A stretch of 20,137 nt of DNA from Stenotrophomonas sp. UBA2302 (GTDB taxonomy: Bacteria; Pseudomonadota; Gammaproteobacteria; Xanthomonadales; Xanthomonadaceae). Numbering within the stretch: position 1 is the stretch's first letter; every line of letters begins with the position of its first letter. This document shows, piece by piece, positions 1 to 17,316 of this stretch. The stretch covers positions 1 through 20,137 of the forward strand of contig DDVW01000022.1 of assembly GCA_002345545.1 (NCBI GenBank). Direction: 5' to 3'. The notes under the pieces are model-generated. The model was given only the letters and a program-made list of their open reading frames with translations, searched no databases and was not told the DNA's origin. Made by a program: the position numbers and the translations under genes.

Positions 1-64
1 GCATGCGGCTGTTCGGCGCAGGCGCGCGCGACCGCGGTCGGGGGAAGGAGGCGGACCCGCGCAT
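1..64 (-). CDS. Start of a gene downstream of the MlaF-like ATPase, possibly MCE/MlaD (partial)
   Basis: An open frame begins with ATG at 64-62, overlapping the TGA of the upstream ATPase by 4 bases (ATGA), and runs open to the window edge. Only 21 codons are visible, rich in Arg, Pro and Ser, without recognisable family sequence. A second in-frame ATG lies at 4-2 and could be the real start; neither has a clear Shine-Dalgarno sequence. In MlaE/MlaF-type operons the next gene normally encodes the MCE-domain substrate-binding protein (MlaD/Ttg2C), so that identity is inferred from position only. Confidence 0.35.
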   Translation of the reverse strand, partial: MRGSASFPRPRSRAPAPNSRM

Positions 65-2091: not shown

Positions 2092-5000
2092 TCATGCGGT
2101 CGCTTCCCCATTCGTGGACTTGCCGCCGCTGCGCACGCGCAGCGAGAACAGCAGGTCGTACAGGATCGGAATCAGGCCCAGCGTCACCAGTGTTCCCAGC
2201 GCTAGGCCGCCGATCATCGTGATCGCCATGCTGGTCCACAGGGGACCGCCGAACAGCATCAGTGGGATCAGGCCGACGATGCAGGTCAGCTTGGTCATCA
2301 CGATCGGGCGCAGCCGCATCACAGCCGCCGAGATCACCGCCTCGCGCCGCGCCAGGCCCGAGGCCAGTTCAGCCTCGATGCGCTCGAGCAGGAGTACAGC
2401 GTTGTTGACGATGATGCCGGCCAGCGCCAGCAGGCCGAAGGTGGCGATGAAGCCGAACGGGTAGCCGGTCAGCAGCAGCGCCAGGGCCGCGCCGATCAGC
2501 ACGAACGGGATGCTCGCCACCACGATGAACAGCTTGCGGAAAGAATTGAATTGCCACACGAACAACAGCAGGATCATGATCAGCGCATGCGGCATGAACT
2601 GCAGCAGCGACTGGTTGGCTTCAGCCGAATCCTCTATCTCGCCGCCAAGTTCGATGCGGTAGCCCGGCGGCAGCTCGATCGCATCGATCTGCGGCGCGAT
2701 CTCGGCGACGATTCCATTGGCGGTCATGCTGGGATGGCGGCCGGTGACCGTCAGCGTGCGCACCAGGTTGCGGCGCATGATCGTTGAGGGCTCGCTCGCC
2801 GTGGAGACCAACGCGATCGCCGATAACGGTAGCGGCGCGCCGCCCGCGCCGGGATAGACCAACGTATCGGCCGGGCTGCCCGCGGCATCGCGCTCGCGCG
2901 CATCGCCGCGCAACACGATCGGCGCAGCCACGCCGTTGTCGCGGATCAGCGAGGCCTGCAGGCCGCTGTAGCGCAGTTGCAGTGCTTGGGCCACGTCTTC
3001 GCTGCTGATGCCGGCGCGGCGCGCCTTGAGCTGGTCGACCTCGACCACGTAGCGCGGCACGCGCGGCAACCAATCGTCGTAGACGTCCTGAATACCAGGC
3101 AACCCGCGCAGCGCCGCGGCGATGCGCTCGCCCGTCTCGCGCAGCACCGCCTCGTCCGGGCCGACCACGCGGTAGATGGCCACGCCGGCCTCGGTCGCAC
3201 CCAGCGGGAAGCGTTTGGGCTCGGCGCGAGCCTGCGGAAACGCCTCGCGCATGTACCGATGGGTGCGGTCGATCACCTGCTCGATGTCGGTGCCCTGCGC
3301 GACGCTGACGGTGAAGTAGGCGATGTTGCTGCCCGGCAGCGGGGGATTCAGGCCCAGCACGATGCGCGGACCGCCGTCGGCGACGTAGCCGATGCTATCG
3401 GTCACCTCTGGATTGACCTTGTCGTCGGCGAACCAGCGGCTCATCGCCTCCACCGTGCGCAGGGTTTCGCGCGAGTCGCTACCAGGTTGCAGGGTCACCG
3501 GCATCTGGAACTGCAGTCGGTCGGACTTGGGCAGGAAGTCGTAGGGGATCGACGCCAGCACAACGCCGGCGCCGGTCAGTAGCACCAGCATGGTGCCGAT
3601 GAACAGCGCCTTGTGGTCCAGCACCCGGGTGATGATCCGGCGGTAGCCGCGGTAGAAGCGCGAATCGTACTGGCCAGCACCCTCGCCGTGGGACGGATGC
3701 ACCTTGGCGAAGTACAGGCACAGCAGCGGCGTCACCGTGATGCTCAGCAGCCAGGAGCCGAGCAGGGTCAGGCCGAGTACGATCGGCAGCGAACGCAGGT
3801 ATTCGTTGGTGGCGGTCTGGCCGATGAAGAACGGCGAGAACGCCATCACGATCACCAGCGAGGAGGTCAGCAGCGGCACCGCCAGCGTGCGGCCGGCCTC
3901 GATACATGCATGGCGGCGCTCTTCGCCGGCGGCCAACCGTCGTTCGATGTCCTCGGCGATGACGATCCCGTTGTCCACCAGCAGGCCGAGAGCCATGATG
4001 ATGGCCGCGATCGATACCGTCTGCAGTTCCACGCCCAGCGCGCGCATGGCGATCAGTGCGCCGAGGATGGTCAGCGGCACGATCGCGCCGACGATCAGAC
4101 CGGTGCGCCAACCCAGAAACAGCATCACGACGACCATGACGATCAGGATTGTCTCGCCCATGACCTGGTGCATGCGGCCCATCTCGCGCGCGACCACGTC
4201 GGCCTGGAAGGTGACCACGTGCTGCTCGAAGCCGGCCGGCAACTGCCGTGCGGTCTCTTCCAGCTTAGTACGCAGCTGCGCACCGAAGTCGCCGATGTTG
4301 TAGCCGGTGGCCATCGACACCGCGACCACCACCGCCGGCATGCCCTCGTAGACCGCGGCGCTCTCGGGCGGATCGGCCGGCATCACCTCGATCCGGGCAA
4401 GATGTCCCAGCGGCACCTCGCGCGTACCGCCCGCACCGGATGTGTCCGACACCGAGACCAGAAAGTGGCGCAACTCCTCGGTGCTGCGCAACTCGCCGGA
4501 AGTGGCCACCGTCATCGCCAGCCCCGAAGCCGACACCAGCCCACCGGGCGCGACCACGTTCTGCGCCTGCAACTGCTGCATCACCGAGGCCGGGCTCAGC
4601 CCGGCCTCGACCAGGCGCCCGCGATCGAACGCCACGTAGACCCGGTCTTCCTGCAGGCCATAGAATGTCACCCGCTCGACGCCAGGCAAGGTATGCAACT
4701 GCGCGCGCAGGTCGCGTAGCGGCTCGCGCATCTCGCTCATGCCGAAGCCCGGCGCGGTGACAGCGATCGAGGCCACCGCCACCCGTCCGAAGTCGTCGTC
4801 GACGAACGGCCCGAAACTGCCGGCTGGCAGGGCCTGGCCGGCCTCAGCCGACTTGGCGCGGACGCGCTGCCACAGCGCCGGCAGGTCCTTGACGTGGTCG
4901 TAGGCGGTGAGCTGGATAGTCGCGGTGCCGGGCCGCACCGTGGTGACGATCCTCTTGAGGCTGCCGATCTCGCGCAGGCGCTCCTCGACCGGCTTGGCCA

Positions 5001-5187
5001 GCAGGGCCTCGACCTGTTCGCTGGGCATGCCGGGATGCGAAATCGTCACCAATGCATCGCGAATCGTGACCGTAGGTTCTTCCTGTGAAGGAAATCCGAG
5101 AAAGGTGACGATGCCGCCGACCAGTACCATCAGCGCGGCGAACAGGGTCAGGCGGCTGGCACCGAGGGCCGAATGGGTCAGCTTCAT
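2092..5187 (-). CDS. RND efflux pump permease, HAE1/AcrB family
   Basis: A 1031-residue inner-membrane RND transporter of full AcrB-like length. An N-terminal membrane helix (about residues 12-32) is followed by a large periplasmic region with the PTVTIRDALVTISHPGMPSEQVE motif area, a membrane bundle from about 340, a second periplasmic loop, and a C-terminal bundle ending around 1010. It should drive export of hydrophobic or amphiphilic compounds with the adaptor and outer-membrane channel encoded upstream. The ATG at 5187 overlaps the adaptor stop as ATGA, implying translational coupling. Two proton-relay positions differ from AcrB: the D407-D408 pair of TM4 reads Asp405-Asn406, and Lys940 of TM10 is replaced by Asn928 (IIVNNAV). 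RLRPIVMT further on is retained. Substrates cannot be told from sequence. Confidence 0.95.
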   Translation of the reverse strand: MKLTHSALGASRLTLFAALMVLVGGIVTFLGFPSQEEPTVTIRDALVTISHPGMPSEQVEALLAKPVEERLREIGSLKRIVTTVRPGTATIQLTAYDHVKDLPALWQRVRAKSAEAGQALPAGSFGPFVDDDFGRVAVASIAVTAPGFGMSEMREPLRDLRAQLHTLPGVERVTFYGLQEDRVYVAFDRGRLVEAGLSPASVMQQLQAQNVVAPGGLVSASGLAMTVATSGELRSTEELRHFLVSVSDTSGAGGTREVPLGHLARIEVMPADPPESAAVYEGMPAVVVAVSMATGYNIGDFGAQLRTKLEETARQLPAGFEQHVVTFQADVVAREMGRMHQVMGETILIVMVVVMLFLGWRTGLIVGAIVPLTILGALIAMRALGVELQTVSIAAIIMALGLLVDNGIVIAEDIERRLAAGEERRHACIEAGRTLAVPLLTSSLVIVMAFSPFFIGQTATNEYLRSLPIVLGLTLLGSWLLSITVTPLLCLYFAKVHPSHGEGAGQYDSRFYRGYRRIITRVLDHKALFIGTMLVLLTGAGVVLASIPYDFLPKSDRLQFQMPVTLQPGSDSRETLRTVEAMSRWFADDKVNPEVTDSIGYVADGGPRIVLGLNPPLPGSNIAYFTVSVAQGTDIEQVIDRTHRYMREAFPQARAEPKRFPLGATEAGVAIYRVVGPDEAVLRETGERIAAALRGLPGIQDVYDDWLPRVPRYVVEVDQLKARRAGISSEDVAQALQLRYSGLQASLIRDNGVAAPIVLRGDARERDAAGSPADTLVYPGAGGAPLPLSAIALVSTASEPSTIMRRNLVRTLTVTGRHPSMTANGIVAEIAPQIDAIELPPGYRIELGGEIEDSAEANQSLLQFMPHALIMILLLFVWQFNSFRKLFIVVASIPFVLIGAALALLLTGYPFGFIATFGLLALAGIIVNNAVLLLERIEAELASGLARREAVISAAVMRLRPIVMTKLTCIVGLIPLMLFGGPLWTSMAITMIGGLALGTLVTLGLIPILYDLLFSLRVRSGGKSTNGEATA

Positions 5188-6287
5188 GGGCGCCCCGCTT
5201 CATTCAGGCGCGAAGCGGAGCGGAACGGCAGCACCGCTTGGCCGTCGCTGAGGAAGGCGCCGCCAGCGGTGACCACCTGGTCGCCTGGCTGCAGGCCGGC
5301 GGTCACGCGCACGCGCTCGCCTTCGACCGAGCCGAGTTCGACGCGGCGGCGGGTCACGGTGCCCACCTTGGTATCGTAGACGTACACCGCATCCTCGCCC
5401 TGTTGTCCGACTACCGCCTGCAGTGGCACCGACAGGTCGACTGCGGACTCATTCGAAAGCGCGAGCAGCAGGCTGTCGCCGCTGCGCAGCGGTACCGAGG
5501 CCTCGGTCACGTCGAAGATTGCCTGGACGCTGGCACCGCCTTCCAGCCGTGAGGAGACGCTTCGCAAGCGCAGCTCGAACGTCGCCTGCGGCGCGTCCGA
5601 GCGCATCGCCCGCACCAGCGCGCCTGGCGCCAGGCCCTGCGCGACCGAGCTCGGCAGCGTCGCCAGCGCCTGCGGCTGGCCCTGGCCCTCGACCTGCAGC
5701 ACGGTCTGCCCGACCAAGGTATCGGCCTGGGGCTGCAATTGGCGGGCCACCACGCTGCCGTCGAACGGCGCACGCAGCTCGCTCTGGCGCAGCGCGCGTG
5801 CAGCCAACGCGCGGTCGGATTCGGCCACGCGCAATTGCGCCCGTGCCGAGTCGTCGGCGACCTGGGCGCTGGTCAGCGTCGCGTGCGAAATCGCTCCGTC
5901 CTCGAACATCGCTTGCTGTTGTTGCAATTGGATCTGCCGTTCCCTGGCCTGCACGGTGGCCGCGCGCAGGTTCGCCTCGGCCTGTGCCAGCCGCAGCCGC
6001 GCCGGCTCGGCGTCCAGACGCGCAAGCACCTGGCCCTTGCGCACGCGGTCACCCACGTCCACGGCGATCTCGGCGATGCGCCCACCGTTCTCGAACGCCA
6101 ATTCCGCGCGCTGCTCCTGGCGCAGGGCGGCGACGAAGCGCGAGGCGGCGGCGGCCGAACCGGCCCCGACGGCCTCCAGCTTGACCGTGCGCAGCGGTTC
6201 GGGCGCGGGCGTGTCGGGACTGCAGGCCGACAGCAGTAGTGTCGCGACCAGCAGGCCGGCGGGGACAATGGAGCGCGCAATGGGCAT
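5184..6287 (-). CDS. RND efflux periplasmic adaptor (membrane-fusion lipoprotein)
   Basis: A 367-residue adaptor protein linking the RND pump to the outer-membrane channel. The start at 6287 has GGAGG 7 bases upstream and yields a lipoprotein signal with lipobox LLSAC (Cys22); the longer open frame to 6392 gives no signal and is not preferred. Recognisable parts in order: lipoyl/barrel-sandwich half ENGGRIAEIAVDVGDRVRKG near residue 65, a coiled-coil hairpin rich in Gln/Ala (about 90-165), the second lipoyl half LRAPFDGSVVARQ, a beta-barrel, and a membrane-proximal domain with VYVYDTKVGTVTRRRVELG. The gene follows the channel gene by 121 bases and overlaps the pump gene by 4 bases, the usual channel-adaptor-pump grouping. 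Confidence 0.93.
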   Translation of the reverse strand: MPIARSIVPAGLLVATLLLSACSPDTPAPEPLRTVKLEAVGAGSAAAASRFVAALRQEQRAELAFENGGRIAEIAVDVGDRVRKGQVLARLDAEPARLRLAQAEANLRAATVQARERQIQLQQQQAMFEDGAISHATLTSAQVADDSARAQLRVAESDRALAARALRQSELRAPFDGSVVARQLQPQADTLVGQTVLQVEGQGQPQALATLPSSVAQGLAPGALVRAMRSDAPQATFELRLRSVSSRLEGGASVQAIFDVTEASVPLRSGDSLLLALSNESAVDLSVPLQAVVGQQGEDAVYVYDTKVGTVTRRRVELGSVEGERVRVTAGLQPGDQVVTAGGAFLSDGQAVLPFRSASRLNEAGRP

Positions 6288-6408: not shown

Positions 6409-7866
6409 TCAAAGCCGGGCGGGCAGTTCGACGCCGTAGAAGGCCCTGAACAGTGCGATGCGGCTTAGCGCCAGATCGCGCTGAGCGTGCAGGTGGTCGA
6501 GCGTGGTGCGGGTCGCCTCGATACGGTCGGCCAGCAGGTCCTGGCGATCCGCCAGCCCGCGCGAGACGCGGCGCTCGGCGCGTTCGAGACGCAGCGCCGC
6601 GAGCCGATCCTGCTCGCGCAACTGGGCTTCGGACACGGCGAAGGTGGCGCGGGCGTCGAGCGCGTCGGCGACTTCGCGGAATGCGGCCTCGATGCTGCGC
6701 TCGTACTCGATCACGCCGGCGTGCCTGCGGGTCCAGGCCAGGTCGAGGTTGGCGCGGTTGCGGCCGAAGTCGAAGATCGGCAGCACCAACTGCGGCATGA
6801 ACGACCAGCTGCGGCTGCCCGAGCTGAACAGATCGTCCAGCGAGTTGCTGGCGCTACCCAGCGAGGTGCTCAGGCGGATCGAGGGAAAGAAGGCTGCGCG
6901 GGCTGCGCCAATGTTCGCATTGGCCGCGCGCAGCTCGGCCTCGGCCTGGCGGATGTCGGGACGCTGCAGCAGCACCTTCGAATCCAGATCGCGCAGTGCC
7001 GCCATTGCGTCGGGCGCCTCGGCGAGCGGTGCCAGCGGGCCGGGTGCCACCTCCGCATCGAATCCGGTCAGCAGCTGCAACGCCCGCCGCGCTGCTGCGG
7101 CATCGTCGCCGGCGCGCAGTGCGGCCACCTGCGCCTGCTCGGTGGCGGCACGCCGGCGGTCCAGCGCGTCGCGTGCGATCAGCCCGATGTCGTACTGCCC
7201 TTGCGCGATCTCCAGCAGCGCCGCGTTGTCCGCATGCACGGCCTGCAGGCGCTGGTGCGCCTGCGTCGCCGCGCAGACCAGCGCATAGGCCCTTAGTACC
7301 TCGGCGACCAACGCGCCGCGCGCTGCCTCCTGCCCAGCCTCGCTGGCTAGATAATGTTCGCGAGCGGCATCGGATAGCGACTTCAGTCGTCCGAATACGT
7401 CCAGTTCGTAGTCGCTGATGGCGATGCCGGCACGCGACAGATCCTGCTGGTAGCGCTCGCGTAGCGCGGGATCGTCGAAGCTCTGTCGGGTCTGCTGCGC
7501 ATCGATACCGGCCGTGGGCAGGCGCGCAGAGCGCTCGACGCGGTATTGCGCGCGCGCCTGCTCGACCCGAAGCGCCGCAAGTCGATAGTCGGCGTTGTGC
7601 GCCAGAGCGCGCACTACCAGCGGCGCCAGGGCGCCGTCGGGCGTCAGGGCGCCCAGGAACTCACGCTCCTGATCCGTCAGCGCCGCGGGCGCGGCCTGCT
7701 CTGCGGCGGTGGCGGCCGCTGCAGCGCGAAGCTGCCCGAACGTCGCCGGTACTGCCTGCGGCGGCCGCTCATAATGCGGTGCCATCGAGCATCCAGCGAG
7801 CCACGGCGCGGCCAGCACGGAGGCCATCAACCAGGCCGGGACATCGCCAGACAATTTTGGGAACAT
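6409..7866 (-). CDS. Outer-membrane efflux channel lipoprotein, OprM/NodT family
   Basis: A 485-residue TolC-like channel precursor. The N-terminus is a lipoprotein signal ending in lipobox LAGC (Cys26). The typical family opening SMAPHYERPP follows, then two repeated helical regions with ALAHNADYRLAALRVEQARAQYRVERS and RPDIRQAEAELRAANANIGAARAAFFPSIRLS, both hallmarks of OprM/NodT proteins. The start at 7866 is supported by GGAG 7 bases upstream; the frame is open further upstream to 8142 but that part runs through the promoter region and into the response-regulator gene. It is the first gene of the minus-strand operon and lies 49 bases beyond an array of regulatory half-sites, so the operon promoter is probably immediately upstream. 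Confidence 0.94.
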   Translation of the reverse strand: MFPKLSGDVPAWLMASVLAAPWLAGCSMAPHYERPPQAVPATFGQLRAAAAATAAEQAAPAALTDQEREFLGALTPDGALAPLVVRALAHNADYRLAALRVEQARAQYRVERSARLPTAGIDAQQTRQSFDDPALRERYQQDLSRAGIAISDYELDVFGRLKSLSDAAREHYLASEAGQEAARGALVAEVLRAYALVCAATQAHQRLQAVHADNAALLEIAQGQYDIGLIARDALDRRRAATEQAQVAALRAGDDAAAARRALQLLTGFDAEVAPGPLAPLAEAPDAMAALRDLDSKVLLQRPDIRQAEAELRAANANIGAARAAFFPSIRLSTSLGSASNSLDDLFSSGSRSWSFMPQLVLPIFDFGRNRANLDLAWTRRHAGVIEYERSIEAAFREVADALDARATFAVSEAQLREQDRLAALRLERAERRVSRGLADRQDLLADRIEATRTTLDHLHAQRDLALSRIALFRAFYGVELPARL

Positions 7867-8013
7867 GCGAATTCTCCAGCGTGTTACAAGAATCGGTGTA
7901 GGTTGCCTTCGGGACTTGAAGGGATGTTTCGGGTTTTTTTTAGATTTGATTAAGAAGCGCCGCTTCGCGCCCAGCGCGATCACGTGGCGCATGCACGAGC
8001 GAGTGGAGTCAGC
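7867..8013. promoter_or_regulatory. Divergent promoter region between RND operon and two-component system
   Basis: These 147 bases separate the channel gene (minus) from the response-regulator gene (plus), so they must hold promoters for both. The only clear structure is the half-site array at 7916-7954. A run of eight T (7934-7941) belongs to that array. No good sigma70 -10 box can be seen on either strand; for the minus strand a weak candidate is TACACC around 7900-7895. Confidence 0.6.
7916..7954 (-). promoter_or_regulatory. Array A: four 11-bp-spaced half-sites upstream of the RND/ABC operon
   Basis: On the minus strand, hexamers CTTAAT (7954-7949), CTAAAA (7943-7938), CCGAAA (7932-7927) and CTTCAA (7921-7916) are separated by exactly 5 bases each. 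The spacing equals one helical turn and matches how OmpR/PmrA-family regulators bind tandem half-sites. The array points toward the channel gene and ends 49 bases before its ATG. Base by base it matches array B at 32 of 44 positions (7958-7915 against 11502-11545). Binding by the neighbouring AdeR-like regulator is inferred. Confidence 0.6.
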
Positions 8014-8703
8014 ATGTCTCAACAGAAAATACTGGTCGTCGAGGACGATCTGGACAGCGCCAGCATCCTGGAGGCCTACCTGCACAAGGACGGCTTCCAG
8101 GTCAGCAAGGCACACGACGGCGCGCAGGCCCTGCAGTTGCACGCACAGTGGCGCCCCGACCTGGTCCTACTGGACGTCATGCTGCCCAAGGTCAGTGGTA
8201 CCGACGTGCTCTCCGCTATTCGCCGTGTTGGCGACACGCCGGTGATCATGGTCACCGCCATCGGCGACGAGCCGGAGAAACTCGGCGCACTGCGCTACGG
8301 CGCCGACGACTACATCGTCAAGCCCTACAGCCCAAAGGAAGTGGTGGTTCGCGTGCACGCAGTGCTGCGCCGCGCACGCCCCTCGCCGCGGCCCGATGGT
8401 CTACTGCGCCACGGCAACGTCGTAGTCGATACCGGTGCGGTTTTGGCCAGCGTGGAGGATGCATCGGGACAGCCAATTCCGCTGTCCCTGACGCCTGCCG
8501 AGTTCAACCTACTGGCCAAGCTGTTGAAGACGCCGTTCAAGGCCTTCACCCGTCATGAACTGCTCGACGCCTGCTTGCCCGAAAGCGATGCACTGGAGCG
8601 GTCCGTCGACGTGCACATGCACAACCTCCGCCGCAAGCTAGAACAGCGTGGTGTGAGCGGCGTACTGATGACAGTACGTGGCGTCGGATACCGTTTCCAA
8701 TGA
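8014..8703 (+). CDS. OmpR-family response regulator, AdeR-like
   Basis: A 229-residue DNA-binding response regulator. Receiver domain: acidic pocket VVEDD with Asp11/Asp12, phosphoacceptor Asp54 in LVLLDVMLP, Thr81 in VIMVTA, Lys103 in YIVKPY. The winged-helix output domain occupies about 135-229 and ends VLMTVRGVGYRF. The stretch SDALERSVDVHMHNLRRKLE closely resembles AdeR of Acinetobacter, the regulator of the AdeABC RND pump; BaeR/CreB-like regulators are the nearest alternatives. The ATG at 8014 has GGAG 5 bases upstream; an upstream in-frame GTG at 7984 is less likely. It overlaps the kinase gene by 4 bases and is divergent from the RND operon, which it probably controls. It is also the best candidate to bind the three half-site arrays. 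Confidence 0.93.
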   Translation: MSQQKILVVEDDLDSASILEAYLHKDGFQVSKAHDGAQALQLHAQWRPDLVLLDVMLPKVSGTDVLSAIRRVGDTPVIMVTAIGDEPEKLGALRYGADDYIVKPYSPKEVVVRVHAVLRRARPSPRPDGLLRHGNVVVDTGAVLASVEDASGQPIPLSLTPAEFNLLAKLLKTPFKAFTRHELLDACLPESDALERSVDVHMHNLRRKLEQRGVSGVLMTVRGVGYRFQ

Positions 8704-9908
8704 AGCTGCGTACGCTGCTGTGGCCGCGCCGGCGTCCGGGCTCGCTATGGTGGTGGTTCGGTCTGCGCATGAGCGCGCTGGCCGTAGGAACCGTGTTGGC
8801 GGTGGCGATCGGCATGTGGGCGTACTTCGACATCGCCGATACGCTAACACTGCGCCAGGCACCGCCGGAGACGCGCCAGGAGATCGAGCGGCTGCGTGAG
8901 GATCCTCGCGGCAATGAGCCTCGGCTGTGGGAGCTGATGGAGCGCTACCACAACATCGAGCGATTCGGCCCCGGCCTGACCAATCCTGACTGGCTGATGT
9001 TGGCCGTCATGGTCGTCGTCGCAATCCCTGTCGTCATCCTGGTCGGGCTGTGGTTGTCGCGACCACTTTCGCGTCAGTTCGTACTGATCGCAGAAGCAGC
9101 CCGCAGAGTCAGTGAAGGCCATTTCGGTAATCGCGTCGATGCGGTGACTACCGCACCCGACGAATTGGCGGGCCTTGTGCGCAACTTTAACGACATGACC
9201 ACGCGGCTACAGCAGTACGAGCGCGAGGTGCGTGACTCCAGTGCGATGCTGGCGCACGAATTGCGCACGCCGCTCAACGCGGCCATGGGCCGTGTCCAAG
9301 GCATGATGGATGAGGTCTTCCCGCTGGAGCAGGATCAGCTTGGTGCGATTCTTCGCCAGCTCGAGCAGATCAACCGGCTGGTGGGCGATCTACACCTGGT
9401 TTCTCTGGCGCGTGCCGGGCAGCTCCCGCTCGAAATGGACAGCTTCCCGCTGCAGGAACTGATTGCGGAGCGGCTGGAATGGGCCGCAGCTGACCTGGAT
9501 CGAGCAGGCATTAAGCCGGTTGTGTCGGCTGCGACCCATATCCAACTGTATGCCGACCGAGATCGCATAGGGCAGGTACTGACGATTCTCGTCGAGAATG
9601 TCCTGCGTTACGCGGCGCGCGGCAAGACACTGGAGATCGACGCAAATAGTACGCCGTTGGGCACAACGATTACCGTCTCGGACCACGGGCCTGGCGTCGC
9701 ACCAGAACATCTTCCCGCGATGCTCGACCGCTTCTGGCGCGCCGAAACCTCGCGAGCGCGTCATTCCGGTGGAAGCGGACTTGGCCTGGCGATAGCTGCG
9801 GCCGTCTGCCGGGCACACGGGGGCGAGCTGGAATGCGGCAATCGTAGCGCTGGCGGCTTGATCGTAAGCGTGCGCCTGCCGACGCGGACTTTTGTCTCGA
9901 CCGGTTGA
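8700..9908 (+). CDS. Sensor histidine kinase, AdeS/BaeS-like
   Basis: A 402-residue membrane sensor kinase partnered with the response regulator, whose stop it overlaps (ATGA). Membrane helices lie at about residues 23-43 and 98-119, bracketing a short periplasmic domain of about 55 residues. A HAMP domain follows (about 120-172), then the phosphoacceptor His186 in LAHELRTPL. The ATPase domain shows N-box Asn300 (LVENVLRYA), G1 box SDHGPGV (327-333) and G2 box GGSGLGLAI (357-365). The periplasmic loop is too short to hold a PAS-like domain, so the signal may be sensed at or in the membrane, which would fit envelope or hydrophobic-compound stress (inference). No terminator is evident downstream. 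Confidence 0.93.
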   Translation: MKLRTLLWPRRRPGSLWWWFGLRMSALAVGTVLAVAIGMWAYFDIADTLTLRQAPPETRQEIERLREDPRGNEPRLWELMERYHNIERFGPGLTNPDWLMLAVMVVVAIPVVILVGLWLSRPLSRQFVLIAEAARRVSEGHFGNRVDAVTTAPDELAGLVRNFNDMTTRLQQYEREVRDSSAMLAHELRTPLNAAMGRVQGMMDEVFPLEQDQLGAILRQLEQINRLVGDLHLVSLARAGQLPLEMDSFPLQELIAERLEWAAADLDRAGIKPVVSAATHIQLYADRDRIGQVLTILVENVLRYAARGKTLEIDANSTPLGTTITVSDHGPGVAPEHLPAMLDRFWRAETSRARHSGGSGLGLAIAAAVCRAHGGELECGNRSAGGLIVSVRLPTRTFVSTG

Positions 9909-10307
9909 CCTGAGACCTGAAGTAAGCGGACGAAAGTCGTGGCGAATACTGAGCTACGAATTGGCGAGCTGGCTATTAGGGAATGCGCCGGCCCAGTCAA
10001 GTGCTTCTGGCAACTGCCAGTCTCGTCGAGAGACTTATCCAGCATTGGACAACGGCAGCAAGCGGATCTGAATTCATCTCTCAACTGATCGGCCTTTTTA
10101 CCGGTGTGCGAAGCCGCGCAGTTCGTCACCAAAGGTGTGCTGGTAGCCAGTCACAACATCGATTGCGGATAGGGCTGCATGTGCTGCGCGTACTGTTTGA
10201 TGGTGTCCTGACGCAATCCATGCCTAACGAAAGGTCAACCATATCCAAAGAAAATCTTTAAATTCCACGCGCATGCTCGCCACGCTCCGAAAGCAAGCTG
10301 CCGTGCA
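9909..10307. other. Non-coding region between kinase and lpxR-like gene
   Basis: About 400 bases with no convincing gene. It starts with a tandem 7-mer GACCTGA (9907-9920, partly over the kinase stop). Two adjacent short palindromes follow: CTGGCA/TGCCAG (10007-10020) and TCTCG/CGAGA (10021-10031); neither is followed by a T-run, so they are not good terminators. Half-site array C lies at 10223-10261. A 92-codon frame at 9983-10261 runs through the array and has no recognisable composition. Confidence 0.6.
10223..10261 (+). promoter_or_regulatory. Array C: four 11-bp-spaced half-sites upstream of lpxR-like gene
   Basis: Hexamers CCTAAC (10223-10228), GTCAAC (10234-10239), CCAAAG (10245-10250) and CTTTAA (10256-10261), each separated by 5 bases, point toward the lpxR-like gene and end 46 bases before its ATG. 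Phase, orientation and distance match array A. The individual hexamers are more diverged than those of arrays A and B. No clear -10 element is visible after it. Confidence 0.5.
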
Positions 10308-11438
10308 ATGCTCATCCCGTCCCTGCTTCTGCCGCCCCGGCAGGCAATCCAGCCCGCACTTCTGGAGCGAGCCGGCAGTTTCCATCGCGCCACCGCGCCC
10401 GCTCGGGGGTTGTTCTTACTCTCCGTGCTGTGCTGGGTCTCGACGGCACTGGCCAGCGAGCCATGCCAAGCTCCCGCCACCCCCAGAAGTGCGAGCACGC
10501 TCAACCTGCGCATGGACAACGACCTGCTCGGCGGCACCGGCCAGGATCAGGGATATTCCAACGGCATATTGGCGACGCTGGTCTCCCCTAACCTAGCAGA
10601 TCAAGCGAATTCGACCTGCCTGCCGGGCGTGGCGCGCTGGCTCAGCCAGCAGTTTGCCGAACGACAATCATCGACCATCGATGAATGGCATCTCACTGCC
10701 GGATTCGGCCACCTGATGTTCACGCCCACGGAGCGAAAGCGGCGGGGCCTGATTGCCAGCGACCGCCCCTACGCCGGGGCGCTGATGTTCAGCTTGGGAT
10801 ACAGCGCGCGCACGGGTGATGTCCTGCGGACGTCCCAGTTGCGCGTCGGCGTGGTAGGCCCCTCGGCCAAGGCTGGCGAAGTACAGAACGCGCTGCACCG
10901 CGTCATCGGTGCTGACAGCTCTCTTGGCTGGGACAATCAATTGCATGACGAGCCCGTGATCCAACTGATTCACGAGCGGCGAGAGCGTCTGCGCAGCAGC
11001 TCCTCGTCCCAGGCTTGGCAGTGGGACGCCATCGGGGCGGTGGGTGGCAGCATTGGCAACTTCGCGACTGCCGCCCATGCAGGGATGGAACTGCGCCTGG
11101 GCACTGAGTTGTCGGACGACTTCGGCATGGCGCCGCTGCGTCCGGCCGGTGAGAACACCACAGCCTTTCAAACTCTCGCGGATGGCATGTGGCGTAGCCA
11201 CCTGTTCCTGTCCCTCGATGCCCGCTGGGTGATGCGCGACATCACACTCGATGGCAATACCTTCCGCAACAGCCACAGCGTCGATAAGCGCCCCTTCGTC
11301 GCCGACATCGGCTACGGCATCGCGGCCGACCGCGGGCGCTGGCGGATCGCCTTTGCACGTTATCACCGCACCCGCGAGTTCGCAGGGCAGCGACAACGAC
11401 CGGTCTTTGGTAGCGTCACCTTCACCCGAGGCTTCTAA
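10308..11438 (+). CDS. lpxR: Lipid A deacylase, LpxR family (DUF2219)
   Basis: A 376-residue precursor of an outer-membrane beta-barrel enzyme that removes the 3'-acyloxyacyl chain of lipid A. A hydrophobic stretch (35-48) ends in ALAS before Glu51, a signal peptide; the n-region is unusually long (about 33 residues) and there is no good Shine-Dalgarno, so the true start may lie further in. Family motifs are all present: LRMDNDLLGGTGQDQGYSNG with Asn71, Asp72 and Ser84, DRPYAGAL (152-159), and Gln193/His197 in the QNALH motif followed by GWDNQLHDEP. These correspond to the Asn9, Asp10, Thr34, Gln118 and His122 region of Salmonella LpxR, so the enzyme looks intact. Array C directly upstream suggests co-regulation with the RND operon. 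Lipid A deacylation would alter outer-membrane permeability and immune recognition. Confidence 0.9.
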   Translation: MLIPSLLLPPRQAIQPALLERAGSFHRATAPARGLFLLSVLCWVSTALASEPCQAPATPRSASTLNLRMDNDLLGGTGQDQGYSNGILATLVSPNLADQANSTCLPGVARWLSQQFAERQSSTIDEWHLTAGFGHLMFTPTERKRRGLIASDRPYAGALMFSLGYSARTGDVLRTSQLRVGVVGPSAKAGEVQNALHRVIGADSSLGWDNQLHDEPVIQLIHERRERLRSSSSSQAWQWDAIGAVGGSIGNFATAAHAGMELRLGTELSDDFGMAPLRPAGENTTAFQTLADGMWRSHLFLSLDARWVMRDITLDGNTFRNSHSVDKRPFVADIGYGIAADRGRWRIAFARYHRTREFAGQRQRPVFGSVTFTRGF

Positions 11439-11722
11439 GGAACAGTTCGAGACATCCAGAGGTTATCGTCCCAGCGCCGCATTCGCGCCGTGCAATGGCA
11501 AGCGACTTAACAAAATCCAAAAGAATCCCAAAAGAATTCTTCAAGCAAGCCCGGCAGGCTGCTACGGCGGACAGATGCACAAACGCACAACGTGAGGCGG
11601 AAGAAGCTTGGGCACGACCTGGTCGTTTCGTCCGCCGACAAGCGTTTGTCATGGTTGCCGCAAAGCCGACCATAAAGTCGCATCCGATTTGCAGACTCCG
11701 GACATACTACCAAGGCGGACAC
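11439..11722. other. Non-coding region and possible leader upstream of the DUF1269-type gene
   Basis: Contains half-site array B (11506-11544) and then about 178 bases before the next ATG. In this stretch the 12-mer GGCGGACA(G/C)ATG occurs twice (11566-11577 and 11714-11725), first ahead of a six-codon frame MHKRTT (11575-11595) and then at the real start. Nested inverted repeats GGCGGA/TCCGCC (11596-11601, 11631-11636) and ACGACC/GGTCGT (11614-11619, 11621-11626) could fold in a transcript leader. Upstream of the array no lpxR terminator is seen. Confidence 0.5.
11506..11544 (+). promoter_or_regulatory. Array B: four 11-bp-spaced half-sites upstream of the DUF1269-type gene
   Basis: Hexamers CTTAAC (11506-11511), CCAAAA (11517-11522), CCAAAA (11528-11533) and CTTCAA (11539-11544), each separated by 5 bases. 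The first and last hexamers agree with those of array A in 5 and 6 of 6 bases, and similarity to array A continues past the array (CCCG, GGC and CTAC in the same order). It points to the DUF1269-type gene but ends 178 bases before its ATG, leaving room for a leader. Confidence 0.6.
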
Positions 11723-12520
11723 ATGAACAAATTTGTAGCCATCATTTTTCCAGATGAAGCGCGGGCCTACGAAGGGGTCCTGGCGCTTCGCGAGCTGCAT
11801 CGAGAGGGCAGTATCCTCCTTTACGGCGAAACGGTAGTCGTCAAGGACGAAGCCGGCAAGCTCTCGATCAGGGAAGCCAAGTCGGCGGGCGGGCTTGCAA
11901 CCACGATTGGCGCAGTTACTGGTGGTCTTCTCGGCTTGCTGGCAGGTCCGTTCGGCACAATCGCAGGACTGACCGGCGGCGCGCTTCTCGGCGGGCTTAA
12001 AGATATATTCGATGCTGGAATTTCTGGGGATTTTATCAAGGTCATCTCCGAAGAACTTACGCCTGGCAGGAGCGTGGTCATTGCCGAAATCGATGAGGGC
12101 TGGACTTCGCCCCTTGATATTCGCATCGCCCCTCTAGGCGGCGTGGTGGTGCGTACGTTCCGTCACGAAGTCGAGGAAGCCCAGATCCGACGCGAGATCA
12201 ATGACATCACGAACGAATTGACGTACCTACGCGAGCAACTGCTCCAAGAGGGTAAGCATGCTGGCACAGAACTAAAGGTGCGCATCGAACTGTTGGACAA
12301 ATCCTTGGCCGAAGCCAGCAAGCGAATTCAAGGGAAGGCCAAAGCTCTTCGCGAAGAAACGGAGGCTGTAATCGTCTCATTACAAGCGCAGGCCGAGGGG
12401 GCTGTCGAATCGGCTGGAAAGCGGATTGAACAACGCATTGCCGATATCCAGGAAGACTACGATAAGCGCGCTGCCAAACTCGAACAGGCTTGGGAACAAA
12501 CCAAGGCCGCGCTGAGATAG
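11723..12520 (+). CDS. DUF1269-type membrane protein with coiled-coil tail
   Basis: A 265-residue protein. Residues 1-55 form a small alpha/beta-looking domain (FVAIIFPDEARAYEGVLALRELHREG). Residues about 58-95 are a glycine-rich hydrophobic hairpin (GGLATTIGAVTGGLLGLLAG and following), the glycine-zipper pattern of DUF1269 proteins. A short domain with VVIAEIDEGW follows, and residues 150-265 are a charged, heptad-like helical region with many Glu, Lys and Ala. The biochemical role of this family is unknown to me; envelope association is likely. The ATG at 11723 is chosen because family similarity starts there; the frame is open to 11495 but that part crosses array B. Third codon positions are noticeably richer in A/T than in the flanking pump and transfer genes, suggesting a separate origin. 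Confidence 0.8.
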   Translation: MNKFVAIIFPDEARAYEGVLALRELHREGSILLYGETVVVKDEAGKLSIREAKSAGGLATTIGAVTGGLLGLLAGPFGTIAGLTGGALLGGLKDIFDAGISGDFIKVISEELTPGRSVVIAEIDEGWTSPLDIRIAPLGGVVVRTFRHEVEEAQIRREINDITNELTYLREQLLQEGKHAGTELKVRIELLDKSLAEASKRIQGKAKALREETEAVIVSLQAQAEGAVESAGKRIEQRIADIQEDYDKRAAKLEQAWEQTKAALR

Positions 12521-12734
12521 CGGCAAAGAAAGCGATCGTCTAAATCGTTGCCCATTGCGCTCTAACGACCCGCGCGGTCGTCGTGGTGGAAGTGCTCGCA
12601 ATTCTCCTTCTCCAGTTGGATGAGGTCGCTGGCAAGCTGGTTTCAATCCCTCCCGATCCGAGGGAAAGGAGGTCGAGCCAGATGTATGGATGAAATGTGT
12701 TAATGAAAAAATACGCAATGGACATCAGGTCGAT
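12521..12734. other. Spacer between DUF1269-type and AI-2E-family genes
   Basis: 214 bases without a firm gene. It holds a hairpin ACGACC-CGCGC-GGTCGT (12565-12581) without a T-run. An open frame from about 12544 to 12693 ends in TGA overlapping an ATG at 12690 (ATGA). A strong AGGAGG occurs at 12667-12672, too far (17 bases) from that ATG for normal use. It could be a small undescribed gene or a decayed remnant. Confidence 0.4.
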
Positions 12735-13835
12735 ATGCAATTAGTGAACCTAAAGGATCGGTCGTTCATTCTCGCGCTGATCGTAATTACGCTGCTCTTC
12801 GGCCTACTGCTATGGCCGTTCTACGCAGCAATCTTTTGGGCGACGGCGCTAGCAGTGCTGTTCTGGCCGCTCTACGAGCGCATCTTGTCATCGATGCCTC
12901 GATCCCCGGCACTGGCATCTCTTTTGACCATAGTAGCGTGCGTGCTGCTCGTAGTGGTTCCGCTTGCACTGGTCGCTATATCTGCTGCGCAGGAAGTAGT
13001 GCAACTCTACGATCACCTACTGGCTGATGGCGGCAGCGGCATCGAAGCCCGTATACATCAGGCCGTAAAGACGGCTCCTCCTTGGTTGCGGGCGTGGCTG
13101 GAACGGATGGGCCTCAACCAGTTGGATGGCATCCGCGGCAACACAGTACAGATCCTCGAACAAGCGCTGCAATTCATCGCCTCGCACGCCGTCGCAGTTG
13201 GTCAAGATACGCTGCGGCTTGCAGTGAGCTTCACGTTGATGCTCTACCTTCTTTTCTTTGCTTTCCGTGATGGAACGAAGGTGGTCGAGAATTTACGTGA
13301 CGCATTACCAATCGAGCGCAGCTACTTGGGTGAGTTGGGGCTTCGGTTCGAGAACATGGTGAAAGCGACGATTAAGGGAAGCCTGATGGTCGCGGGCATC
13401 CAGGGTGCGCTTGGAGGCGTGCTGTTCTGGTTGCTCGGAATCCAAGGAGCAGTTTTGTGGGGTGTCGTAATGGCAGTGCTGTCACTAATCCCCGTGCTGG
13501 GGGCGTGGTTGGTCTGGGGGCCGGTGGCACTTTATCTTCTAGCAACGGGTGAAGTGGCAAAAGCGGCTCTTATGGCCGCGTTCGGCGCCGGTGTAATCGG
13601 ATTAATCGACAACATCCTGCGACCGATCCTCGTTGGTAAGGAAGCTCGCATGCCGGATTATATCGTCCTGCTATCCACTCTCGGTGGAATCTCGCTTTTT
13701 GGATTGACCGGTCTCGTCGCTGGACCGGTTATCGCGGCCTTTTTTATGGCGGCCTGGTCATTGTTTGTCGCAGGAAACACAAGTGGCGAATCCAGCACTC
13801 CGCATGCTTCAGCCGAGCCCGAGAATTCGGGGTAG
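12735..13835 (+). CDS. AI-2E/PerM-family membrane transporter
   Basis: A 366-residue polytopic inner-membrane protein. Family features: N-terminal hydrophobic block with LLWPFYAAIFWATALAVLFWPLYERIL, an amphipathic middle part, and a C-terminal bundle with LIDNILRPILVGKEARMPDY followed by LSTLGGISLFGLTGLVAGP, a hallmark of the family. Family members are variously described as AI-2 exporters, ion antiporters or permeases of unknown substrate, so no substrate is assigned. I prefer ATG 12735 since homologous-looking sequence begins at LKDRSF shortly after; ATG 12690 would add 15 residues. As with the preceding gene, codon use is more A/T-rich than in the pump operon. The next gene (lysR) begins 27 bases downstream with no terminator. 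Confidence 0.88.
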   Translation: MQLVNLKDRSFILALIVITLLFGLLLWPFYAAIFWATALAVLFWPLYERILSSMPRSPALASLLTIVACVLLVVVPLALVAISAAQEVVQLYDHLLADGGSGIEARIHQAVKTAPPWLRAWLERMGLNQLDGIRGNTVQILEQALQFIASHAVAVGQDTLRLAVSFTLMLYLLFFAFRDGTKVVENLRDALPIERSYLGELGLRFENMVKATIKGSLMVAGIQGALGGVLFWLLGIQGAVLWGVVMAVLSLIPVLGAWLVWGPVALYLLATGEVAKAALMAAFGAGVIGLIDNILRPILVGKEARMPDYIVLLSTLGGISLFGLTGLVAGPVIAAFFMAAWSLFVAGNTSGESSTPHASAEPENSG

Positions 13836-13862: not shown

Positions 13863-14801
13863 ATGACAATGGAACTACGACACCTTCGCTATTTCCTTGC
13901 CGTAGCCGAAGAATTGCACTTCGCCCGTGCGGCTGAGCGGCTGCATATTGAGCAATCGCCGCTGTCGCGCGCCATCAAGGAGCTTGAAGAAGAACTGGGC
14001 GTGATTCTGCTTGCCCGCACCACTCGCAGCACACGACTTACTCGTGCCGGAAAGTTATTTATGGATCATGTGCCGCGCGTCTTCGCAGCATTGCAGCAGG
14101 CTCGCGATAGCGTGCAAGCAGCTGCGAACGGCTTCCACGGGCAGTTGCGCGTGGCTCTTTCCGATGGCATCACCCCGTCGCGTTTGCCGGGGCTCTTGGC
14201 GCTGTGCCGCCAAGAAGAGCCAGAGGTTGAGCTTCGGTTCTTCGAGGTGCCTCTATCGCAGCAGATCAAGGGACTGCATGATGACCTCTATGACGTGGGT
14301 TTCGCGCAGTCCGACGAAGTGGGCGACAGAGTTGTCGCCATGCCGGCCTGGAGCGATACGCTTATGGTGGCGGTGCCTGCGCGGCACCCTCTGTTGGTCC
14401 ACAAGCGCATCCCTTTGGATGCGCTGTTGCGTTACCCGCTAGTGCTATGCGATCCACAGGTGTGCGAGGGTCATGCCAAGCACGTCGAACGTGTGCTGCG
14501 TCGGACAGGCATGGAGCCGTTGATAGCCGAGCGTGTGGCCTCCTGCGATCTGATGATGGCGCTGGTATCCGCAGGCTTCGCGTTGGGTCTGACGGGCGAG
14601 GCGCACATTTCCACCAGTCGCGAAGCGGGCGTTGTGGCACGGCCGCTTGCATCGCGTGTGCCGCCGCTGACGACCTACTTGCTGCGCCTTGAGGGCGATC
14701 CATCCGATGAGATCTCGCGCTTCATCGAGCGAGTGAAGGCCATCCAGTCGCCAGAGTCTCCCAAGCATCGACCTGATTCCCCGGGAGCGCTTGCGCCATG
14801 A
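13863..14801 (+). CDS. LysR-family transcriptional regulator next to the transfer genes
   Basis: A 312-residue LysR-type regulator. The N-terminal winged helix-turn-helix is clear (MELRHLRYFLAVAEELHFARAAERL, then SPLSRAIKELEEELG, about 3-65); the periplasmic-binding-protein-like effector domain spans about 92-295. ATG 13863 and ATG 13869 are both possible. A LysR gene adjacent to traG is a known arrangement in Tn4371-type elements, where it is thought to control transfer; that role is inferred here. It overlaps the following lipoprotein gene by 4 bases (ATGA). It follows the accessory gene by only 27 bases, so a junction between cargo and transfer module may lie in 13836-13862. Confidence 0.9.
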   Translation: MTMELRHLRYFLAVAEELHFARAAERLHIEQSPLSRAIKELEEELGVILLARTTRSTRLTRAGKLFMDHVPRVFAALQQARDSVQAAANGFHGQLRVALSDGITPSRLPGLLALCRQEEPEVELRFFEVPLSQQIKGLHDDLYDVGFAQSDEVGDRVVAMPAWSDTLMVAVPARHPLLVHKRIPLDALLRYPLVLCDPQVCEGHAKHVERVLRRTGMEPLIAERVASCDLMMALVSAGFALGLTGEAHISTSREAGVVARPLASRVPPLTTYLLRLEGDPSDEISRFIERVKAIQSPESPKHRPDSPGALAP

Positions 14802-15076
14802 AAAGGATCATCCCGCTTTTGCTGGTGACCGCGATGACTGCCTGCGGCCAGTCCGAAGCGCCTCAGAAGATCAACGCTTCCGAAGCGAATATTCCAACAG
14901 TGGAAGAGCTTGCGGCCAATCCTGAACGGCTCAAGGAACTGCGCCAGCACTGCAAGACTGACCGCCCAAAGTTGGGTGGCGTGCTGTGCAACCGGGTGGC
15001 CGAAGCTACGCGCAAGCGGTTCTATGGCGACGGCGAAACGCCATACACGCCTCCGAAGGAACCGCCCAAGTTCTGA
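14798..15076 (+). CDS. EexN-like lipoprotein (putative entry exclusion)
   Basis: A 92-residue lipoprotein: signal peptide with lipobox MTAC (Cys16), then a short mature protein. The stretch VEELAANPERLKELRQHCKTDR followed by Cys63 and RVAEATRKRF resembles the EexN/entry-exclusion lipoproteins of Trb-type systems, which are thought to stop a cell from acting as recipient of an element it already carries. It starts within the lysR stop codon (ATGA) and is followed by a strong terminator, so lysR and this gene form their own transcription unit rather than being part of the traG-trb operon. The family call rests on motif recognition; exclusion function is inferred. Confidence 0.8.
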   Translation: MKRIIPLLLVTAMTACGQSEAPQKINASEANIPTVEELAANPERLKELRQHCKTDRPKLGGVLCNRVAEATRKRFYGDGETPYTPPKEPPKF

Positions 15077-15312: not shown

Positions 15313-17316
15313 ATGCAAGGGACGAACGTGCTGTTTGGTCAGATCGCCGTGGTGCTCGGCATCGTGATCGCCGGAGTGTGGGCCGCCACACAATGGACGG
15401 CAGCGGCCCTTGGCTATCAAGTACGCCTTGGCTCGCCCTGGTTCGACTTTCTTGGCACGTCGATCTACCACCCGTGGAAACTGTTTGAGTGGTGGTTCTT
15501 CTTCGGCGCCTTTGCACCGGAGGTCTTCGACACCGGCGGCGCGATTGCCGGCGCCAGCGGCATGGCCGCCGTGGGCGTCGCCATCGCCATGTCGGTCTGG
15601 CGCTCGCGTCAAGCACGCATGGTCACAACCTACGGCTCTGCGCGCTGGGCGAACGCACAGGACATTCGCAAGGCTGGCCTCACACAGCCTGCCGGCGTGT
15701 TCCTGGGCCAGCATGATCGCCAATACCTGCGTCATGAAGGCCCGGAACACGTCCTGACCTTCGCACCCACGCGCTCGGGCAAGGGCGTTGGCCTCGTGGT
15801 GCCGACGCTGCTGTCATGGCCGGCCTCCGCCGTCATCCACGACATCAAGGGCGAGAACTGGCAGATCACCGCCGGCTGGCGCTCGCGCTTCTCGCACTGC
15901 CTGCTGTTCAACCCGACCGATGTGCAGTCGGCGGCCTACAACCCGCTGCTGGAGGTTCGACGCGGCGCGCATGAAGTTCGCGACGTGCAGAACATCGCGG
16001 ACATTCTCGTTGACCCCGAAGGCGCGCTGGAGAAGCGCAACCATTGGGAGAAAACCAGTCACGCGCTGCTGGTCGGGGCCATCCTGCATGTGCTCTATGC
16101 GGGCGAAGACAAGACGCTGCGCGGCGTCGCCAACTTCCTGTCCGACCCGGCCAGCCCGTTCGAGCTGACTTTGCATCGGATGATGACCACGCCCCATCTG
16201 GGCAATGGGCCGCATCCTGTCGTCGCTTCGGCGGCGCGCGAAGTACTCAACAAGTCGGACAACGAGCGTTCCGGCGTGTTGAGCACCGCCATGTCGTTTC
16301 TCGGCCTGTACCGTGATCCGACCGTGGCCGCAGTCACGTCGCGCTGCGACTGGCGCATCGCTGACCTGATCGCTGCCGAGCATCCGGTGTCGCTGTATCT
16401 GGTGGTGCCGCCTTCGGACATTTCTCGGACGAAGCCGCTCATTCGCCTGATCCTCAACCAGATCGGTCGGCGCCTCACCGAATCGCTCGATGGCTCCGAC
16501 GGCATCGAGCGTCGCCACAAGCTGCTGCTGATGCTTGATGAGTTCCCGGCGCTGGGACGCCTGGACTTCTTTGAGACGGCGCTGGCCTTCATGGCCGGCT
16601 ACGGCATCCGCAGCTTCCTCATCGCGCAGTCGCTCAACCAGATTGACAAGGCGTATGGGCAAAACCACTCCATCCTCGACAACTGCCATGTGCGCGTGAC
16701 GTTCGCCACGAACGACGAGCGCACCGCCAAACGGATCTCCGAGACGCTGGGCACGGCCACCGAGCTGCGCGCCCAGCGCAACTACGCGGGCCACCGACTC
16801 GCGCCGTGGCTCGGGCATCTGATGGTGTCGCGCCAAGAAACAGCGCGCCCGCTGCTGACGCCGGGCGAGGTGATGCAGCTTCCGCCTGACGAGGCGGTGG
16901 TGATGGTGTCCAGCGTCGCGCCGATCAAGGCCAAGAAGCTGCGCTACTACGCGGACAGCAATTTCAAGCGCCGTGTGCTGCTGCCTCCCGCGCTCGCGGA
17001 CGGGCAGTACGCGGACGTGCCGCCGTTGCGTCTGGACGACTGGAGCGGCCTGGCGATTCCCGCCGTGCCCGTTGCGCCGGCGTCCGATACCGCCGAGGGC
17101 TTCGCTGCCTCTGCCGACGACGGCGGCCCGCGCCGTCAGCCCGAACTCTCCGAAACCGTCGCCTACGCCCCTGAGCTGGCCGCGCCTGCGGCCGACCTCG
17201 CGCTGCTCGATGACGACGACGACCTGCCGCTTCCCCTTCCTCGCCAGCTTGACCCATCCATGCAGCGCACGGCGCGGCTGGCTTCCCTCGACCCCAACGA
17301 CGGAATCGAGCTATGA
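15313..17316 (+). CDS. traG: Type IV coupling protein TraG/VirD4 family
   Basis: A 667-residue coupling protein that brings the relaxase-DNA complex to the mating channel. N-terminal membrane helices lie at about residues 8-30 and 78-96 (with a further hydrophobic stretch near 58-68). Walker A TRSGKGVG (153-160) is followed by VVPTLLSWPASAVIHDIKGENW, and Walker B LLLMLDEFPALG has Asp409/Glu410. The C-terminus is Pro/Ala-rich with an acidic run (DDDDDLPLPLP) typical of a partner-binding tail. ATG 15313 has GGAGG 8 bases upstream. Its stop overlaps the next gene (ATGA). Length and order match Tn4371-type elements, in which traG leads the trb operon. Confidence 0.95.
   Translation: MQGTNVLFGQIAVVLGIVIAGVWAATQWTAAALGYQVRLGSPWFDFLGTSIYHPWKLFEWWFFFGAFAPEVFDTGGAIAGASGMAAVGVAIAMSVWRSRQARMVTTYGSARWANAQDIRKAGLTQPAGVFLGQHDRQYLRHEGPEHVLTFAPTRSGKGVGLVVPTLLSWPASAVIHDIKGENWQITAGWRSRFSHCLLFNPTDVQSAAYNPLLEVRRGAHEVRDVQNIADILVDPEGALEKRNHWEKTSHALLVGAILHVLYAGEDKTLRGVANFLSDPASPFELTLHRMMTTPHLGNGPHPVVASAAREVLNKSDNERSGVLSTAMSFLGLYRDPTVAAVTSRCDWRIADLIAAEHPVSLYLVVPPSDISRTKPLIRLILNQIGRRLTESLDGSDGIERRHKLLLMLDEFPALGRLDFFETALAFMAGYGIRSFLIAQSLNQIDKAYGQNHSILDNCHVRVTFATNDERTAKRISETLGTATELRAQRNYAGHRLAPWLGHLMVSRQETARPLLTPGEVMQLPPDEAVVMVSSVAPIKAKKLRYYADSNFKRRVLLPPALADGQYADVPPLRLDDWSGLAIPAVPVAPASDTAEGFAASADDGGPRRQPELSETVAYAPELAAPAADLALLDDDDDLPLPLPRQLDPSMQRTARLASLDPNDGIEL

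Follow-up and report, generated by a model that had tools for sequence, protein, structure and literature searches.

The contig DDVW01000022.1 of Stenotrophomonas sp. UBA2302 (assembly GCA_002345545.1) was analysed over positions 1 to 20,137 of its forward strand (20,137 nucleotides, hereafter the window). Its genes run in the order ABC-MlaE-RND-MFP-OMF on the minus strand, where MFP is the membrane fusion protein and OMF the outer membrane efflux protein, and then on the plus strand a divergent response regulator-kinase pair, LpxR, DUF1269, AI-2E, LysR, EexN, TraG and trb genes, together cargo and transfer genes of a Tn4371-type conjugative element. Upstream of the efflux operon, of LpxR and of the DUF1269 gene lie three arrays, each of four hexamers with exact 5-base gaps (11-bp spacing). 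Judged from the sequence, these arrays are very probably the operators of the adjacent two-component system, which would activate from them the three promoters of one envelope-defence regulon. With its new gene set and its four-part boxes, this would be an AdeR/DzrR-type regulon on a mobile element. No description of a regulon of such composition was found in paper titles or the openings of abstracts, a search that did not cover most of the subscription literature. The arrays and the genes around them are as follows.

7916 to 7954, minus strand: efflux array, CTTAAT CTAAAA CCGAAA CTTCAA, 11-bp period, upstream of OMF-MFP-RND-MlaE-ABC
7900 to 7904, minus strand: bases downstream of the efflux array (A 7904, T 7900), presumed -10, invariant columns in 12 external loci
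10223 to 10261, plus strand: LpxR array, CCTAAC GTCAAC CCAAAG CTTTAA, upstream of LpxR
10273 to 10277, plus strand: bases downstream of the LpxR array (A 10273, T 10277), conserved columns
11506 to 11544, plus strand: DUF1269 array, CTTAAC CCAAAA CCAAAA CTTCAA, upstream of the DUF1269 gene and the genes toward the LysR in the traR position
11556 to 11560, plus strand: bases downstream of the DUF1269 array (A 11556, T 11560), conserved columns
8014 to 8703, plus strand: OmpR-family response regulator, AdeR/DzrR-like, presumed binder of the arrays
8700 to 9908, plus strand: sensor histidine kinase, AdeS/BaeS-like (HAMP, HisKA, HATPase_c)
64 to 879, minus strand: ABC ATPase
873 to 2024, minus strand: MlaE-type permease
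2092 to 5187, minus strand: RND efflux permease
5184 to 6287, minus strand: MFP
6409 to 7866, minus strand: OMF, ATG at 7866
10308 to 11438, plus strand: LpxR family lipid A deacylase (PF09982)
11723 to 12520, plus strand: DUF1269 protein, with another in-frame ATG at 11651

A first-pass annotation of this DNA had placed the three arrays at these coordinates and on these strands, and all three are there. The hexamers that it listed are also present, but its second and third lists are swapped relative to the coordinates. The efflux array does end 49 bases before the OMF start codon, as had been said; the distance of 46 bases given for 11506 to 11544 is in fact that from the LpxR array to its ATG at 10308. 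A GTG at 11592 was rejected as a start for the DUF1269 gene, being out of frame.

Nineteen external loci encoding relatives of the regulator were examined. Three came from a scan of genome contigs (Duganella, Pseudoxanthomonas and Uliginosibacterium, with regulators 76%, 69% and 70% identical to that of the window, respectively). The other 16 were obtained by searching 398 genomes of one order, of which 17 matched at E <= 1e-80, one of them the Pseudoxanthomonas already included. Only one of 399 genomes of another order matched, and this was the Duganella genome itself. A four-part array with an 11-bp period lies in the intergenic region upstream of the regulator and points away from it in 18 of the 19 external loci; three of these 18 trained the matrix, so that the held-out count is 15 of 16. 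The external arrays face an efflux operon or, in locus L113, another gene. When 12 non-redundant external arrays (chosen from the 18 at less than 80% identity over 110 bases) are compared together with the window array, conservation proves to be far higher in the 39-bp block than on either side of it. The external consensus is CTTGAT N5 CTTGAA N5 CTAGAA N5 CTTGAA and the window arrays are A-richer.

The same 12 external arrays served as a model from which the window was excluded. They share 15 invariant columns, 13 inside the array and two downstream of it (A at +50 and T at +54). All 15 are found in both the efflux and the DUF1269 array and 12 of the 15 in the LpxR array, and no other position in the window has at least 12. 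The background consisted of 67 loci (L014-L080) that surround less closely related response regulators and are of mixed base composition; here 27 of 1,979,256 positions have at least 12 invariant bases, two have at least 13 and none has at least 14. With an external matrix covering the array and 21 downstream bases, the three arrays rank first to third among 40,116 window positions, and scores as high occur at 0 (efflux), 0 (DUF1269) and 1 (LpxR) of 1,979,390 background positions. A half-site matrix from three other genomes ranks the efflux and DUF1269 arrays first and second in the window, with no score as high at 1,984,884 background positions. The same matrix was used to vary the period at 16 held-out loci (the window and L101-L115, some of them near-duplicates), and gave a mean score of 29.3 at period 11, whereas the means for periods 6 to 10 and 12 to 17 lay between -1.0 and 5.1. 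No fifth half-site is seen, since at each of the 19 loci the adjacent position on either side has a score below zero.

The arrays stand out as A-rich islands from DNA of 65% GC, which might be taken to mean that the periodicity arose by chance in AT-rich promoter DNA. Given the external models and the shuffle and period tests, the probability of this is negligible, and for the efflux and DUF1269 arrays chance is already refuted. Taken together, the array is kept with the regulator and the external-only model finds exactly three sites in the window, so that a single OmpR-family regulon of pump, LpxR and DUF1269, as the first-pass annotation had proposed, is well supported computationally.

Several observations weigh against this regulon. 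Locus L116, whose regulator is 55% identical, has no convincing array. Loss of the arrays from relatives had been named in the first-pass annotation as a sign against the proposal, and while the array upstream of the regulator is kept in the 18 external loci above, the picture is mixed in ten further loci from the contig scan (L003-L012, regulators 51-57% identical): L008, L009 and L012 have an array in front of the regulator gene, L003 and L005 have one only further downstream, and L004, L006, L007, L010 and L011 have none at the regulator. The background locus L051 contains a site (minus strand, 1558) that scores 37.1 with one 39-column matrix, near the 38.7 that the two best window arrays reach with a similar matrix; this is possibly a real array at the locus of a more distant regulator. 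The downstream bases alone fail to single out the efflux and DUF1269 arrays (background as high, 0.18 and 0.076), though they are informative for the LpxR array (6.6e-4). The DUF1269 array ends 178 bases before the ATG at 11723 (106 before the in-frame ATG at 11651), farther than the other two arrays. Finally, the LpxR array differs at three of the 15 invariant bases, its half-site score is weak and equalled by 72 of 1000 shuffles of its own intergenic region, and an adjacent array is missing at all 41 other LpxR loci.

The LpxR survey covered 15 loci from regulator-positive genomes with the half-site matrix and 41 loci in all with two 39-column matrices. With the former no score exceeded 10.3, which belongs to a stretch of L117 some 430 bases upstream of LpxR that has lower-scoring counterparts in L120 and L124; this match was taken for coding sequence and not counted as an array. 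With the 39-column matrices the highest scores were 13.7 and 12.5, and none was rarer than 1e-5 of background positions. Among the 41, L123 is the LpxR gene of the Pseudoxanthomonas locus L002 itself, far downstream of the L002 array, and L136 and L147 are short. Control of LpxR by such an array is not a general feature.

It could be argued from these data that only the efflux and DUF1269 arrays are operators, the LpxR array being a chance or decayed sequence and lpxR being transcribed otherwise. We regard this as rather unlikely. With matrices that exclude it, the LpxR array is the third-ranked independent site in the window, it has both invariant downstream bases and it lies at a short distance from its ATG. 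A 39-column matrix built from the other two window arrays and the Duganella array gives it a score of 26.0, which is reached at 2 of 1,984,884 background positions, in 0 of 2000 shuffles of the intergenic region and in 0 of 5000 of 10180-10307; when just the 39 bases are shuffled, 1 of 5000 reaches it. In L101-L131, loci that contain arrays of the same kind, 8 of 754,454 positions score as high. A matrix scan, as suggested in the first-pass annotation, is clear for two arrays; the third is weak by half-sites but rare by the 39-column matrix.

The arrays might also be bound by an OmpR-family regulator of the host, of the PhoP, PmrA or ColR type, rather than by the element's own. Regulators of these types use direct half-sites in 11-bp phase, and in the boxes of PhoB, PmrA and PhoP the half-sites recur every 11 bp with the last one in place of the -35 box. 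The first half-sites of two window arrays, CTTAAT and CTTAAC, resemble the PmrA half-site. Those systems differ from that of the window in signals, genes and half-site consensus. However, the array stands beside the relatives of the element's own regulator in 18 of the 19 external loci examined, where the consensus is CTTGAT/CTTGAA and not CTTAAT, and none of the 15 LpxR loci from regulator-positive genomes has an array beside LpxR. Control by a host regulator is therefore very improbable, and the element's own regulator is the better candidate.

The regulator has the domains of the OmpR/PhoB family (PF00072, 97.5 bits; PF00486, Trans_reg_C, 66.5 bits). Its best NCBIfam family is AdeR (NF012227, 234.1 bits, under the equivalog cut-off of 340) and its best sequence match in the PDB is the AdeR DNA-binding domain. 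The kinase is below the curated cut-offs of both AdeS and BaeS. In AdeRS-AdeABC of Acinetobacter baumannii, as in the window, an RND pump operon is divergent from a regulator-kinase pair. The AdeR site is likewise described as an intergenic direct repeat with an 11-base period (PMC10052836), but it has two repeats and another sequence.

The second relative is DzrR, a regulator of Dickeya oryzae with homologs in Burkholderia and Ralstonia, which is described as an AdeR-like OmpR-family regulator of an RND pump, with 11-bp-phased direct repeats upstream of the pump and envelope-targeting agents as signals (PMC10052836). Its box, CTCCAT-N5-CTCCAT, is described there with two repeats and one pump operon as target, in contrast with the four half-sites and three presumed promoters in the window. 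The DzrR half-site CTCCAT also differs from the CTTAAT/CTTCAA type of the window (CTTNAT), and the likeness drawn here is one of box and description. Among the arrays listed, CTCCAT occurs only as the first half-site of the MipA arrays of L114 and L115 (see below). The text on DzrR is without MipA, and its passages on the system are without LpxR or a mobile element (PMC10052836). AdeR homologs of two genera are reported to bind each other's promoters (PMC11892822). The window arrays and their external counterparts would provide an exact operator for this little-studied group of AdeR/DzrR-like regulators.

We infer binding to the arrays, activation rather than repression, the signal and co-transcription. 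Envelope damage would be the signal, as in the DzrR and AdeR relatives. The kinase would then phosphorylate the regulator, or the regulator would act otherwise; DzrR activity is reported to be likely independent of phosphorylation (PMC10052836). Two regulator dimers would bind in tandem to the four direct half-sites, all on the same face of the helix. With the last of these taking the place of a -35 box, at 15 bp from a weak -10, RNA polymerase would be recruited at three promoters, those of OMF-MFP-RND(-MlaE-ABC), of lpxR and of the DUF1269 gene and the genes behind it. The invariant T comes 15 bp after the end of the last half-site, and a simple scan of 9850-12750, around the LpxR and DUF1269 arrays, found no sigma-70-like promoter. 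This suits activator-dependent promoters at which the regulator replaces the -35 contact.

The opposite arrangement, in which the regulator represses and the array blocks polymerase, appears improbable. In 17 of the 18 external array loci the distance between the beginning of the array and that of the regulator match is only 11-26 bases (34 in L013), so that the regulator may also repress its own gene. The position of the last half-site and the lack of a sigma-70-like promoter in the scanned region argue for activation, and AdeR and DzrR are both reported to activate their pumps (PMC10052836).

The genes that accompany the array were tallied in 19 array systems, namely the window and the 18 external loci. 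In 14 of the 19, none of them the window, the OMF and MFP genes have between them, on the same strand, a gene for the outer-membrane protein family MipA. MipA stands apart in L114 and L115, behind a second array of its own, 79 and 46 bases upstream of MipA respectively; these second arrays (L114 12438-12476, L115 12542-12580) have as first half-site CTCCAT, that of the DzrR box. The window and L002 (2 of 19) have LpxR and no MipA was found in them. The LpxR gene of L002 follows RND in the same orientation, with two other genes in between, whereas that of the window has its own array. L113 has neither MipA nor LpxR; its array faces a peptidase M1 gene (7317-9727), and no RND, MFP or OMF relative was found within the 20-kb locus. 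In more distant relatives (regulators 51-58% identical), arrays scoring 12.6-25.6 stand at MipA in L008, L009, L012 and L082 and at MFP-RND in L005, L009, L012 and L082. This suggests that regulators of this group serve at their core to couple an RND pump to a barrel protein of the outer membrane, either MipA or LpxR.

The window LpxR matches PF09982 at 315.8 bits (residues 43-375), with the domain over its full length, and by family it is predicted to be a lipid A 3'-O-deacylase. In L103, which has MipA, a 64-residue LpxR remnant (7848-8063, 58% identical to window residues 306-369) lies beside the kinase gene. LpxR also occurs beside different pumps and TetR-type regulators in two other Tn4371-type elements, L081 and L161, and so its place next to an efflux system recurs. 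L081, a Hydrogenophaga plasmid, has at 13155-21804 a TetR-LpxR-HlyD-ABC-permeases-OMF cargo just before LysR-EexN-TraG, as in the window. The cargo of L161 is TetR-OMF-MFP-RND-MipA-MBL fold-LpxR, and its RND is 26% identical to the window pump. Two distant LpxR matches in viral contigs were not used.

The window contains the Tn4371-family block traR-eexN-traG-RHH-trbB-trbC-trbE, on which the assignment to this family rests. The following genes lie between the DUF1269 gene and the trb genes, which are also on the plus strand.

12690 to 13835, plus strand: AI-2E family transporter
13863 to 14801, plus strand: LysR-type regulator, in the traR position of Tn4371-family elements
14798 to 15076, plus strand: EexN-like lipoprotein (31.4 bits, cut-off 33)
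15313 to 17316, plus strand: TraG coupling protein

The LysR-EexN-TraG-trb block has 83-97% protein identity to that of L081, and LysR, EexN and TraG are 67-88% identical to those of L161. TraG is 97% identical to that of L081 and 88% to that of L161, and LysR is 83% and 71% identical to LysR genes in the same place in two other such elements. By position, the LysR gene is the putative traR. A described Tn4371-family element is like the window in its LysR(traR)-eexN-traG-trb order and in its cargo, which points at traR, and the window cargo differs from it in having its own two-component system and three arrays (PMC11448139). An envelope-defence regulon would here be carried by a conjugative element.

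The DUF1269 array stands in front of a run of genes that all share its strand, namely DUF1269, AI-2E, the LysR in the traR position, eexN and traG. In the element described in PMC11448139, traR is reported to be co-transcribed with the cargo and to activate excision and transfer, and its overexpression to raise expression of xis and traG and activate transfer. Envelope stress could in this way trigger transfer, and we suggest tentatively, as a possibility that is on balance doubtful, that the envelope-stress regulator also raises traR through the DUF1269 array, coupling stress to transfer of the element. The gaps in the run are 169 bases (DUF1269 to AI-2E) and 27 bases (AI-2E to LysR). A simple scan found no terminator-like site on the plus strand between the DUF1269 array and 13404; the one at 13404 lies inside the AI-2E gene, and the scan found no more such sites than did shuffles. 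RNA structure was not unusual in the DUF1269 leader (z -1.22) or in the gap after DUF1269 (z 0.43). The 169-base gap, the promoter that traR also has of its own in the reported element (PMC11448139) and the identification of LysR as traR by position only count against the link. If the link is true, exposure to envelope-damaging agents would both protect the host, through the pump and lipid A trimming, and promote the spread of the element.

Elsewhere in the window, a tRNA-Ser called by ARAGORN at 904-984, inside the MlaE gene, is probably a false positive, and Rfam gave no match. DNA similar to the window was limited to two short weak matches in plasmids, with none in E. coli genomes. No homologs of DUF1269 were found in viral contigs, three genomes, 91 genomes of one genus and 21 genomes; in a protein search the identical protein was listed for 26 contigs that a source assigns to Stenotrophomonas maltophilia, which hints at a host. 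In L083, a Variovorax plasmid locus whose regulator is 58% identical, there are several matrix hits scoring 16.9-20.8, both near the regulator and away from it. Klebsiella and Salmonella plasmids also encode a regulator that is 58% identical, which in L082 lies in a MipA / regulator-kinase-MFP-RND cassette. Finally, the GC content of the DUF1269 and AI-2E genes (11723-13835) is 55-56% in comparison with 67-72% for the pump genes, and given this lower value the block may have an origin separate from that of the pump genes.

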